From Pseudomonas bijieensis (GTDB lineage: Bacteria; Pseudomonadota; Gammaproteobacteria; Pseudomonadales; Pseudomonadaceae), in assembly GCF_013347965.1 (NCBI RefSeq), contig NZ_CP048810.1, forward strand, positions 1,550,001-1,614,000: DNA of 64,000 bases. Direction: 5' to 3'. Within the stretch, counting starts at the first letter, position 1. Each line of letters starts with the position of its first letter. A model generated the notes under the pieces. The model was given only the letters and a program-made list of their open reading frames with translations. It searched no databases and was not told the origin of the DNA. A program made the translations under genes and the position numbers. Below are positions 60,299 to 64,000 of this stretch, in pieces.

Positions 60299-60766
60299 TC
60301 ACGCCGTTAACGCTTTCATCAAGCCAGTGGTGCCGATGATTTTCATAACCCTTTTCAGATTGTAAGCGAGCACATTCAGGCTCATCTCTGCACTCACCCC
60401 GTTAAGCTTTCCTGCGAGACCTGCTGCGATGATCCGCATCGACTTCATCTGGCTCGCCACCGAGCCCATGGACATGCGCGCCGGCACTGAAACCGCTCTG
60501 GCGCGAGTTGTCGCGCCAATCGCATGAAAGTGCTGGATGCGGTTGAGATAACCGTAGATGTAGATCTTCAGCAAGACCGAGGGATGGTAAGCAGGCCGGC
60601 CAGCATCGGCAGGGATGACACCTTCAAAACGCAGATTGACCAGGTCGAGTTCATCGACAAAGACGTCGACTACGCGCACCGGGTTGGTATCGCTGATTTA
60701 GTCGTCGAGACTCTCGGGAAATAAGGTGCCTTGGCCTCGCTGTTCGCCTTGAATAAAGCGCTTCAT
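60299..60766 (-). pseudogene. IS1182-like transposase remnant
   Basis: One frame gives MKRFIQGEQRGQGTLFPESL followed by DD, a TAA stop at 60700-60698 (Tyr expected), then NPVRVVDVFVDELDLVNLRF and AYHPSVLLKIYIYGYLNRIQ, the N-terminus of IS1182-family transposases. After about 60530 the family pattern is lost, and resumes near 60400 with VSAEMSLNVLAYNLKRVMKI and a normal C-terminus. The large catalytic middle is missing and is replaced by an IS66 TnpB piece in antisense (60429-60526). Confidence 0.85.
60429..60526 (+). pseudogene. IS66-family TnpB fragment
   Basis: The plus strand encodes MIRIDFIWLATEPMDMRAGT followed by ETALARVVA, the N-terminus of IS66 TnpB, then jumps in another frame to ANRMKVL, a later TnpB segment. 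This shows an internal deletion. It lies within the remnant of the IS1182-like transposase, antisense to it. Confidence 0.75.
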
Positions 60767-60839: not shown

Positions 60840-61457
60840 TTATTGAACCAGCTGCCGGATCCCTAGAGACAAAATCAAACCACCGCATAATCGATCAATA
60901 GCTTTTTTCCTCTTTCGATACGCTGAAGCAATCTCAGGTAGCGAAAGAGCGATTGCGACCACCCCATACCAAGTCATCGAAACCACCACTACGACTGCCA
61001 GCATCGACAAAAACGTGCTTGGTGAAACGTGGGTGGGGGCTGCTGCTGAGAAAATAGCAGCATAGAAGGCCATGGATTTAGGGTTGCCAATGTTCGTAAC
61101 AACCCCCTGAATGAATGACTGCCGAAAGTTTCCGACGACAGAATTATTGCAGGGGGCAAGCGCGCTCTTCCCGGCCTTGAGCAGCAGTCGGAATCCAAAC
61201 CACATCAGATAGGCAGCCCCCAGAACTTTTACGATCAGCGCCGCCCAAGGGAACGCAGCAAATACAACGCCGATACCTGCGATTGCACAGGTGGCCCAGA
61301 ACAAATTGACCAATACGATGCCTGCTACCAAGGCCAAAGCTTCTGACCGCGTAGCAGCTACCGCTTTGTGGACTACTGCAACGAAATTTGGCCCTGGAAT
61401 AACGACACCGGCCAGGTAAACCAAAAAGACTGTCAAAACGGCGGAACCATCGATCAT
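60840..61457 (-). CDS. LysE-family amino-acid exporter
   Basis: A 205-residue inner-membrane protein with about six helices, of the LysE/RhtB superfamily: LVYLAGVVIPGPNFVAVVHKAV and the motif IGNPKSMAFYAAIFSAA are typical. It should export amino acids or derivatives. ATG 61457 is chosen because AAAGGA lies six bases before it; an ATG at 61463 abuts that site. It lies between the inverted repeats at 60138 and 61574, upstream of the dead transposase, so it may be a passenger gene. Confidence 0.88.
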   Translation of the reverse strand: MIDGSAVLTVFLVYLAGVVIPGPNFVAVVHKAVAATRSEALALVAGIVLVNLFWATCAIAGIGVVFAAFPWAALIVKVLGAAYLMWFGFRLLLKAGKSALAPCNNSVVGNFRQSFIQGVVTNIGNPKSMAFYAAIFSAAAPTHVSPSTFLSMLAVVVVVSMTWYGVVAIALSLPEIASAYRKRKKAIDRLCGGLILSLGIRQLVQ

Positions 61458-61573
61458 GTGCATTCCTTTGCGAGTGTTGTGGCCGGGGACGGTCATCATT
61501 CAGTTCAAAGCCGTCCGCGGCTTCAACGTACAACGAAATAAAAATTCGATACAGGGCTTTTGAGCGTAGTTGT

Positions 61574-61593: not shown

Positions 61594-61724
61594 AGGAGGG
61601 GACAGTCAAATCAAGCAGCTTGGCTGTGAGCATAAACGTCCAGCAGGGCTCTCTGCGAGCTTGACCCATCCCTCTTACGGATGATATGCCGGTACCAGGG
61701 ATTGCCATCGATAGGACCTGCTCT

Positions 61725-62456
61725 ATGACCTACCTGTCTTCGTTGCTGCTCGATATCCCCGGCGTGGATCATGGTTTCGAGACTTCTGGAAACTTAACGC
61801 TGCCGGAAGGAACACGTTACTGTGCTCAGGCTCACGGAACGCACATCATCGATGCTGACGTGGAAGGGCGAGATGAACGTCCTGTCGCCGATGCACTGTT
61901 CTCGAGAGGAGTCCGGGGTGCGGTAGCGGTCATCACTGCCGATTGCTTGCCGGTTCTGGTTGCGTCGGTTGATCAACCATTTGTAGCGGCAATCCATGCC
62001 GGATGGCAGGGTTTGAAAGCAGGCATCCTCGGTAATTCGATAGGCCGGTTAGAGAAAGAAGGTGCTTCTCTTGCTGGATTGCGAATAGTGATAGGCCCAT
62101 CCATCGGCCCCTGTTGTTATGAGGTGAACAGGAAGTTTGTCGAGGGTATTGAACATGCCGACAGCCATCTTTGGCAAAACGATTCTCCGCCGTGGACGCC
62201 CCACAGAGTGCCACCCGCAAGTGCGCCTTGGGTCGAACCTGAGGTCACACATAATGAAGCCTGGTTCGATCTACGAAAATATGCGCTGCACCACTTGGTT
62301 GCGAGTGGTGTGAGTATTGAACAGATTCAGGTGCTTGAACATTGTACTTATTGCCACAGCGCTGATCTGGGCAGCTATCGGCGACGGAGCCATCAAACCG
62401 AGCCTAAATCCTTCCAGTATTCCTGGATAAGACGTTATCGGGATCCGGTTTGCTGA
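61725..62456 (+). CDS. PgeF/YfiH-type multicopper polyphenol oxidoreductase (laccase-domain) protein
   Basis: A 243-residue protein of the YfiH family. Metal and active-site segments QAHGTHI, ITADCLPVLV, AIHAGWQGLKAG and GPSIGPCCYEV are all present. E. coli PgeF removes mis-incorporated residues from peptidoglycan precursors, while relatives have purine nucleoside phosphorylase activity. The housekeeping copy in Pseudomonas lies near rluD, so this one is probably a paralogue in an accessory region. AGGACCTGCTCT precedes ATG 61725; an upstream in-frame start at 61686 is less likely. An imperfect hairpin (62460-62495) follows the stop, and 62496-62784 holds no clear gene. Confidence 0.85.
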   Translation: MTYLSSLLLDIPGVDHGFETSGNLTLPEGTRYCAQAHGTHIIDADVEGRDERPVADALFSRGVRGAVAVITADCLPVLVASVDQPFVAAIHAGWQGLKAGILGNSIGRLEKEGASLAGLRIVIGPSIGPCCYEVNRKFVEGIEHADSHLWQNDSPPWTPHRVPPASAPWVEPEVTHNEAWFDLRKYALHHLVASGVSIEQIQVLEHCTYCHSADLGSYRRRSHQTEPKSFQYSWIRRYRDPVC

Positions 62457-62784
62457 ATGGCGATTTCAGCCGGTCGTCGCGACAGGCAGAAATCGGCCAA
62501 TAGCTGCCTTTCGTGTAGAACGACTATCGACAAAGGCCATCTTCCGCCTAGTCTCGCGTCGACTTGCGCAGAAAAGCTGTATGAATGTACAGTTGCCTGG
62601 CCGTGCGGATCGTTGCCCCGGAATCTGCGAGATCGTGCGCAAGTGATTCTCCACATTGGTAACGAAGGAAATGATGATGCTAAAGAGCCATTACTTGTGA
62701 TACGTTTGATTTCCACGCTTGGCAGGGACGTCTAAGCTAGTTGCGTACATCCCTTCCTCGCATTTTTTACACTAAGGGATGTAC

Positions 62785-63255
62785 ATGAGTTCTGAACTAG
62801 AGTTTCGGAGCAGCGCTGAAGTTTTGCAGCGCTGGCTCAAGCGATCCAGAGAGTCACAGCTGTCGCATCAGTTGATGGCAGAACGTCTAAGCTCGGTCCA
62901 CCGCTGGCTGGGTGTGCTAACCATCGGCATCACTGCAATTGCAGGTGCCACCACATTATTGGCGACGCTTGGGGATGTATCCAAAGTGTTGCTCGCTCTC
63001 TTCACGCTGCTGGCAGCAATTCTCTCCTCATTACAAACTTTTTTGAAACTTGAAGATCGCACGAACCTTCACCGAATTTCTGGGGCTGGCTATGGCCATG
63101 TCCGTCGGAAACTGGAGTTAGCCATGGCACTCGAAAGTTCTGAAAAGGAAATCCGGTTGAAGGAGGCTGAGTTTGAGCTGAACAAACTGGCAACAGAAAG
63201 TCCGAGTGTATCAAAGCGGGTCTATGACGCTGCGTTGAAGAGGAATGGTCAATGA
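62785..63255 (+). CDS. SLATT-like two-helix membrane protein
   Basis: A 156-residue protein: N-terminal helical segment (SSAEVLQRWLKRSRESQLSHQL), two adjacent transmembrane helices (about 41-62 and 66-86; LGVLTIGITAIAGATTLLATLG and LLALFTLLAAILSSLQTFL), then a long charged cytosolic coiled coil (about 90-150; LEDRTNLHRISGAGYGHVRRKLELAM). This is the layout of SLATT domains, predicted membrane effectors of nucleotide- or SLOG-linked conflict systems. AAGGG sits seven bases before ATG 62785. Its stop overlaps the next gene's start (ATGA), so the two form an operon. Confidence 0.78.
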   Translation: MSSELEFRSSAEVLQRWLKRSRESQLSHQLMAERLSSVHRWLGVLTIGITAIAGATTLLATLGDVSKVLLALFTLLAAILSSLQTFLKLEDRTNLHRISGAGYGHVRRKLELAMALESSEKEIRLKEAEFELNKLATESPSVSKRVYDAALKRNGQ

Positions 63256-64000
63256 GCAATCCATTCAACAACTTGATCTTTGATCGTATTATTTTGCATA
63301 ACGTACATAAGCCTAATGAGCATGGCGCTACGCCCGCCACAATCAGCCTTGAGTTGACTACCCTCGATCAAGCGGGTAAGCAAATGCTTCAGGAGCGGGT
63401 CAGCAAGGTTCTCGGGACAGGGTCAGGGTCGTTGGCAATGGATGTCTCCAACAAAACGACTGCGAGTTGCTACGAGTACTCTAAGCAACTAGTTCAAGCA
63501 TCTGATCGGGGATTTATTACCACCTCGGCAGCGATTGCCCACCACCATACTTCCATCCACACCAGCAAACGCTGGCCTGGCGGCACTTTGGTGATTATTT
63601 CCGGGACCACGGACACAGACAACAAGCGGTGCTTGATCATTATCAAGGCCGAACAGCAAGCTGGTTTCACGGAAACGGAAGAGGATGGCAAGATCACTCT
63701 CGCCTACCTTGAAAACCTGATCCTCACCCCGCAATCTAAACTTTATAAGATCGGTATTTTTTACGAAACGGTTTCCAAAACTAGCGGAGCGGTTGTTGAC
63801 CTTAATGCGCATGTATTCGACAGCAATATAAAATCCGATGACGATCGTCAAGCTGCGAAATATTTTTACTCCAGCTTCTTAGGGCTCAGAATTCCGGACA
63901 ACGCGGTGCAGCGGACCCGCGATTTTTTCGATTACACCGCCGAATTTATCGGAGGGATGGATGTGCCACCGGAGCGAAAAATCGACTTGCAACAAGCGTT
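63252..64000 (+). CDS. NdpA-like (37-kDa nucleoid-associated) protein, partial
   Basis: At least 249 residues, cut by the window end. It opens MSNPFNNLIFDRIILHNVHK and contains GGTLVIISGTTDTDNKRCLI, IIKAEQQAGFTETEEDGKITL and NLILTPQSKLYKIGIFY. The run CLIIIKAEQQAGF resembles the IIKLxxxxGF core of NdpA/YejK-type nucleoid-associated proteins. That assignment is moderate; the C-terminal half is not available. The start overlaps the SLATT-like gene by four bases (ATGA), showing coupling. Codon use is more AT-rich than the core genes. Confidence 0.65.
   Translation, partial: MSNPFNNLIFDRIILHNVHKPNEHGATPATISLELTTLDQAGKQMLQERVSKVLGTGSGSLAMDVSNKTTASCYEYSKQLVQASDRGFITTSAAIAHHHTSIHTSKRWPGGTLVIISGTTDTDNKRCLIIIKAEQQAGFTETEEDGKITLAYLENLILTPQSKLYKIGIFYETVSKTSGAVVDLNAHVFDSNIKSDDDRQAAKYFYSSFLGLRIPDNAVQRTRDFFDYTAEFIGGMDVPPERKIDLQQA

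Follow-up and report, generated by a model that had tools for sequence, protein, structure and literature searches.

A mobile NA37–RelA/SpoT gene pair, in places joined by a SLATT membrane protein, as a candidate conflict module in Pseudomonas bijieensis

Background

The stretch of the Pseudomonas bijieensis genome studied here (64,000 nucleotides, hereafter the window; bases 1550001–1614000 of a single 6.73-Mb contig) ends inside an operon encoding a two-helix SLATT membrane protein, an NA37 (NdpA/YejK-like) protein and, beyond the window, a RelA/SpoT-type synthetase (RSH), whose closest described counterparts are found among the Kiwa, toxSAS, CBASS and DRT9 systems. Kiwa pairs a membrane protein with a soluble protein, KwaA being thought to hold KwaB at the membrane. 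In toxSAS systems, a small RelA/SpoT-type synthetase is associated with a controlling partner, which is fused to the enzyme in CapRel, a phage-sensing toxSAS (PMC9712102, available text), and encoded by a neighbouring gene for FaRel2 (ATfaRel2). CBASS-type operons place a two-helix SLATT beside a nucleotide-making SMODS nucleotidyltransferase, and SLATT proteins have been predicted to be nucleotide-signal-responsive pore effectors (PMC7159879, available text). DRT9 is an antiviral core with only an occasional adjacent SLATT gene, for which nucleic-acid control of membrane proteins was suggested by its authors in the available text of PMC12483538.

The locus described here combines traits of these systems without matching any of them. 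It shares with toxSAS a small RelA/SpoT-type synthetase with an adjacent cognate partner gene (NA37 in 80/80 genome loci, RSH in 47/48 viral loci, see below), but the partner is a protein of NA37 fold of about 350 aa, the synthetase has about 100 further C-terminal residues, and a SLATT gene may be added; the main text of a study of toxSAS neutralisation (PMC11782079) contains neither the word nucleoid nor YejK. As in CBASS, a SLATT can stand beside a nucleotide-making enzyme, but this enzyme is a RelA/SpoT pyrophosphokinase rather than a CD-NTase, with NA37 as the constant partner, and no SMODS family was among the matches to the operon proteins. Likewise, DRT9 differs by its core enzyme, a reverse transcriptase making poly-dA. 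Resemblance to Kiwa is limited to a weak similarity in fold between the N-terminal domain of NA37 and KwaB, while an RSH enzyme is present and SLATT stands in place of KwaA; we rejected NA37 as a KwaB homologue, this being a lead from fold only (profile comparison probability 0.6%), and no match to PF16162 (KwaB) was found in the genome. In the openly licensed papers searched, we found no description of the SLATT-NA37-RSH combination, nor of NA37 with RelA.

Results

An operon crossing the end of the window

An original prediction, made from the letters of the window, had proposed a SLATT-like protein overlapping by ATGA an NdpA-like protein as a candidate conflict system, and profile searches supported both family calls. 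Extending the sequence past position 64000 (included here as locus L002) revealed a further gene. The SLATT gene lies on the plus strand (62785..63255, 156 aa, or 158 aa from the ATG at 62779); its frame, which ends at 63255, may start at 62779 or 62785, the second ATG being the start in 15 of 18 aligned relatives and the other three having longer annotated starts. The protein scored 102.8 bits against NCBIfam SLATT_4 (NF033632, cut-off 55) and matched the PADLOC 2TM effector model (E 8e-15), with a Pfam SLATT_4 score (24.3) slightly below the cut-off of 27. A hydropathy scan predicted two membrane segments at about residues 41–59 and 60–78, and a structure search returned no solved relatives.

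The ATGA overlap joins this gene to NA37, which starts at 63252 on the same strand, runs to the end of the window (63252..64000) and is complete at 63252–64310 (352 aa). NA37 scored 44.2 bits against the Pfam NA37 model (cut-off 24.6) over residues 14–324 of 352, and its predicted fold matches YejK (9be2). A second ATGA overlap joins NA37 to the RSH gene (64307–65311, L002 6308–7312, plus strand, 334 aa; Pfam RelA_SpoT 50.4 bits, cut-off 27). The operon therefore comprises three genes, the window covering one complete gene and a portion of the next. Comparison with the P. caspiana copy (L003) indicated purifying selection on SLATT (dN/dS 0.125) and on NA37 (0.056). Scans for promoters (6 promoter-like sites for 5.7 expected) and terminators (3 terminator-like sites for 4.2 expected) gave no signal, and no tRNA genes were found in L002. 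Elsewhere, the same genome has two matches to RelA_SpoT and another strong match to NA37; this other NA37 gene, presumably the housekeeping NdpA, scores 330 bits against 44 for the operon copy, which also differs from YejK/NdpA in its sporadic occurrence and its pairing with RSH.

NA37 and RSH as the conserved pair

Genome loci were collected with the RSH alignment alone, keeping the best 80 of 120 relatives, and 48 viral loci were collected by an NA37 search of viral contigs; as the 80 genome loci are a best-scoring sample, counts among them are not prevalence figures. NA37 was found directly upstream of RSH in all 80 RSH-anchored genome loci, and RSH directly downstream of NA37 in 47 of the 48 NA37-anchored viral loci, the contig ending in the remaining one (L084). 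The pairwise-identity matrices of the two proteins were strongly correlated (r = 0.934, 124 loci), a value reached by none of 999 permutations in a Mantel test. This test and the residue counts given below cover 124 of the 129 loci (L002–L130), the other five being excluded because their NA37 or RSH frame was absent, short or broken (L053, L068 and L130, for example, have a break in one or both genes).

Within the genus, NA37 was detected in six of 298 genomes and RSH in the same six, with E-values of about 1e-69 or better for RSH and a next match at 8e-31; the chance of such a coincidence is about 1e-12 if relatedness and the placing of the cut-off are disregarded. Around 19 more distant RSH loci from 16 further genomes of the genus, no NA37 was found in the flanks scanned (about 1.5 kb or less per side). 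At a larger scale, the pair occurs in records labelled with twelve phyla, several of which are binned metagenome contigs, as well as in viral contigs, and the module is therefore no local oddity. We regard the existence of NA37-RSH as a genuine functional unit, conserved and mobile, as close to certain. The pairing of SLATT with NA37 as the core, as first proposed, was rejected: these genes do co-occur in other genomes, but SLATT was recognised at only 13 of the 80 genome loci and 8 of the 48 viral loci, and the constant partner of this NA37 in the loci examined is RSH.

NA37 had no match in 50,697 annotated phage records, in which RSH had one weak partial match, and a plasmid search gave four NA37 matches at 30–33% identity, one of them over an annotated RelA/SpoT gene. 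Two of these four plasmid matches fall in chromosome-sized Neisseria records. For Escherichia coli, a near-match search of 20,395 records with one prophage version (L113) came back empty. One of the collected loci (L049) belongs to Acidithiobacillus sulfurivorans RW2, the strain studied in PMC10561277; its RSH gene adjoins NA37 and, by word search, is unnamed in the main text of that paper.

The synthetase

The synthetase motifs of RSH are intact. Fifteen of the 22 motif positions examined were invariant in 124/124 RSHs (R52, K54, K62, D79, R84, S129, H131, E154, Q156, R158, H163, H170, Y174, K175 and R186), six others varied in 1 to 7 rows and K80 varied in 34. The fold is that of small alarmone synthetases, with CapRel and FaRel2 among the structural matches, and a search of viral structures returned mainly other RelA/SpoT-type proteins as top matches. 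The additional C-terminal residues, mostly helical, lie outside the listed structural alignments. RSH is likely the enzymatic heart of the module.

SLATT as a variable addition

SLATT was found just upstream of the pair in 12 of the 80 genome loci (the L004 copy being broken in two frames) and just downstream in L063. For the viral loci, six of 48 passed the upstream rule, and two more brought the total to eight: L119, which fails the rule only through a too-early mechanical NA37 start, and L102, where SLATT is downstream. In both downstream cases, a SLATT_1 gene follows RSH instead of preceding NA37 (L063 7046–7495; L102 8019–8456). The ten adjacent two-helix proteins tested all exceeded an NCBIfam SLATT cut-off (that of SLATT_1 for nine of them, that of SLATT_4 for the tenth), as did four of seven further candidates. 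Two models, both built from adjacent SLATTs, found none elsewhere in the locus flanks. Small proteins encoded downstream of the pair in L117, L066 and L124, which are candidate effectors, matched no NCBIfam family.

The distribution of SLATT was mapped on a quick RSH tree (109 rows after removal of near-copies), in which L102 sits on a long branch with unsure placement. SLATT presence required four gain or loss events, three or more of them forced by well-supported branches, against about 18 with shuffled labels. It covered a SLATT_4 clade of Pseudomonas (4/4 rows), a SLATT_1 clade of Vibrio, Oceanospirillum and enteric bacteria (13/13 rows) and the isolated rows L063 and L102. These patterns are best read as SLATT having joined NA37-RSH by three or more separate gains, the simpler reading because the subfamilies and the gene order differ. 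In the genus, close SLATT relatives were restricted to three genomes, all among the six carrying the pair; eleven more distant relatives were also detected, and the neighbours of eight of them were scanned.

Transferred block and border repeats

The operon lies within a 4.0-kb block (62461–66471, plus strand, in the window 62461..64000) that shares 98–99% DNA identity with a genome of another species (G005), where its counterpart sits at an unrelated place. The block has a GC content of 46.9% against 59.6% for the window, in line with the AT-richer interval first noted. In G005, the shared stretch is flanked on one side by IS21 genes and on the other by a gene whose product, a KAP P-loop NTPase protein of 818 aa (L161 1364–3817, minus strand, with weaker HSDR_N_2 and DrmMI matches), appears by its sequence to be restriction- or defence-like. 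An ISL3 transposase gene splits RSH in this copy (L161 6098–7399), with SLATT and NA37 open.

A repeat search identified an imperfect 28-nt border repeat at 62481–62508, 66417–66444 and 68194–68221 (L002 4482, 8418 and 10195), copies of which lie within 30 nt of both ends of the stretch shared with G005. With zero mismatches, an 18-nt form has two matches in the genome, both at this locus, and none for a reversed control; with up to one mismatch, it occurs at 15 places, five of them at this locus, for three in the control. A 24-nt form is present in 19 of 99 genomes of the genus, none of which has more than two copies. Identity with genome G022 (97% on the left flank) extends into the repeat and is lost beyond it; this presence of other DNA after the same repeat suggests that the repeat is an exchange site.

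After RSH and a 220-base gap, the block also encodes a 280-aa protein (65532–66374, L002 7533–8375) that is presumably PIN-like by motif, for which searches of Pfam, NCBIfam and PADLOC gave no family under the thresholds applied and no solved relative was detected (best E 0.3). It is 99% identical in G005, inside the shared block. Its candidacy as a fourth component was unsupported, a tblastn search finding it in one of 133 related loci, namely the G005 copy, and it is probably a passenger. The interval from the second border repeat to the third encodes a 435-aa protein (66569–67876, minus strand, L002 8570–9877) that had no confident family match in Pfam, PADLOC or NCBIfam and no relative in the 133 loci. 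To the left of the block lie a DUF772 transposase fragment (60302–60679, minus strand), which bears out the transposon scarring of the interval, a LysE transporter (60843–61499, minus strand) and a laccase-domain (Cu-oxidase_4) gene (61686–62453, plus strand).

Discussion

The architecture of the locus, its sporadic distribution and the recruitment of SLATT lead us to propose a mobile, toxSAS-like conflict module in which NA37 would control RSH and SLATT would be a membrane effector answering the RSH product, a reading that we consider evenly poised between being right and being wrong. Such a module would fit the sparse distribution and the transferred block, and an answer to the RSH product would be the best single reading of the repeated presence of SLATT. 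Also in its favour are the tight co-inheritance of NA37 and RSH, the invariant synthetase motif positions, the SLATT genes of two subfamilies and two positions in distinct regions of the RSH tree, the DRT9 precedent for SLATT as an occasional partner, the SLATT relative that overlaps a SMODS gene in this genus (L172), and the further NA37 and RelA_SpoT matches elsewhere in the genome. Under this scheme, NA37 may bind the nucleoid or a DNA complex of the invader, and either keep RSH silent or switch it on. Active RSH would transfer pyrophosphate from ATP to a purine nucleotide, or possibly to tRNA ends, and its product would arrest the cell and would also open the SLATT membrane protein in loci that carry it, phage growth being then halted by abortive infection. 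A more specific version, to which we lend tentative and rather low credence, is an alarmone-signalled counterpart of CBASS, where NA37 would trigger RSH during infection and a pyrophosphorylated nucleotide would act as the second messenger opening independently recruited SLATTs.

Several observations weigh against this proposal. Most NA37-RSH pairs examined lack a recognised SLATT (107 of 128 loci, among which other SLATT subfamilies could have been missed), and the core therefore does not need it. In genome G271 (L164), SLATT is interrupted by an in-frame stop but the NA37 and RSH frames remain open. Of the eight scanned SLATT relatives of the genus, just one lies beside a nucleotide-signal enzyme, in a CBASS-like pair in which it overlaps a SMODS nucleotidyltransferase gene (L172 1000–2684, 305-codon frame), the other seven having other neighbours or none of known family. 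PADLOC gave no match for NA37 and only a partial PDC-S33 match for RSH, and no known defence gene was among the left-hand neighbours scanned in the window. A member of the NA37 family has also been interpreted as acting on the supercoiling of a mobile element inserted at tRNA-Met, according to the available text of PMC10561277. As to the original prediction, its conflict-system part is retained, but not its placement in a defence island, restriction-type neighbours being few: a survey of 123 proteins neighbouring 70 genome loci gave phage integrase as the most frequent Pfam domain (7), with ResIII (3) and C5 methylase (2) among the top 25 of 146 families.

This integrase signal (7/123), together with the 48 viral-contig loci that encode NA37-RSH, would also suit a function outside defence, that is, a prophage- or island-borne regulator of growth, lysogeny or element DNA topology acting through NA37 and extra alarmone synthesis. 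The available texts of two studies point the same way: the ndpA gene of A. sulfurivorans RW2 lies in a mobile element and was proposed as a supercoiling modulator (PMC10561277), and two P. protegens phages carry NdpA/YejK, possibly of another subfamily, near an integrase (PMC10305613). A supercoiling role nevertheless leaves the RSH and SLATT genes unexplained, the main text of PMC10561277 does not contain the terms SpoT, ppGpp or pyrophosphokinase, and the absence of NA37 matches from annotated phage records means that sequenced phages do not routinely carry it; we thus deem such a regulator quite unlikely. The toxSAS-like organisation leads to another alternative, a toxin-antitoxin system in which RSH would be the toxin, making alarmones or pyrophosphorylating tRNAs, NA37 both antitoxin and phage sensor, and SLATT a non-responding accessory. 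The pair shares with toxSAS the adjacency of the two genes and has CapRel and FaRel2 among its structural matches; its NA37-fold partner and the longer C-terminus of RSH set it apart from described toxSAS. We consider this alternative unlikely, if conceivable. Finally, in a Kiwa-like arrangement, SLATT would serve as the membrane anchor or sensor holding NA37 at the membrane, with RSH as effector. The N-terminal domain of NA37 weakly resembles KwaB in fold, the comparison of profiles and the presence of RSH depart from Kiwa, and this arrangement seems to us highly doubtful.

Conclusions

If the proposed conflict module is correct, it would tie together the NA37 nucleoid-associated family, stringent-response-type synthetases and SLATT effectors, which were unlinked in the open papers searched. 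The NA37 proteins of mobile elements, interpreted as DNA-topology factors in the available text of PMC10561277, would then gain a concrete partner. It also raises the testable question of whether anti-phage immunity may use (p)ppGpp- or (p)ppApp-like nucleotides to gate a membrane effector, in the way that CBASS uses cyclic oligonucleotides.
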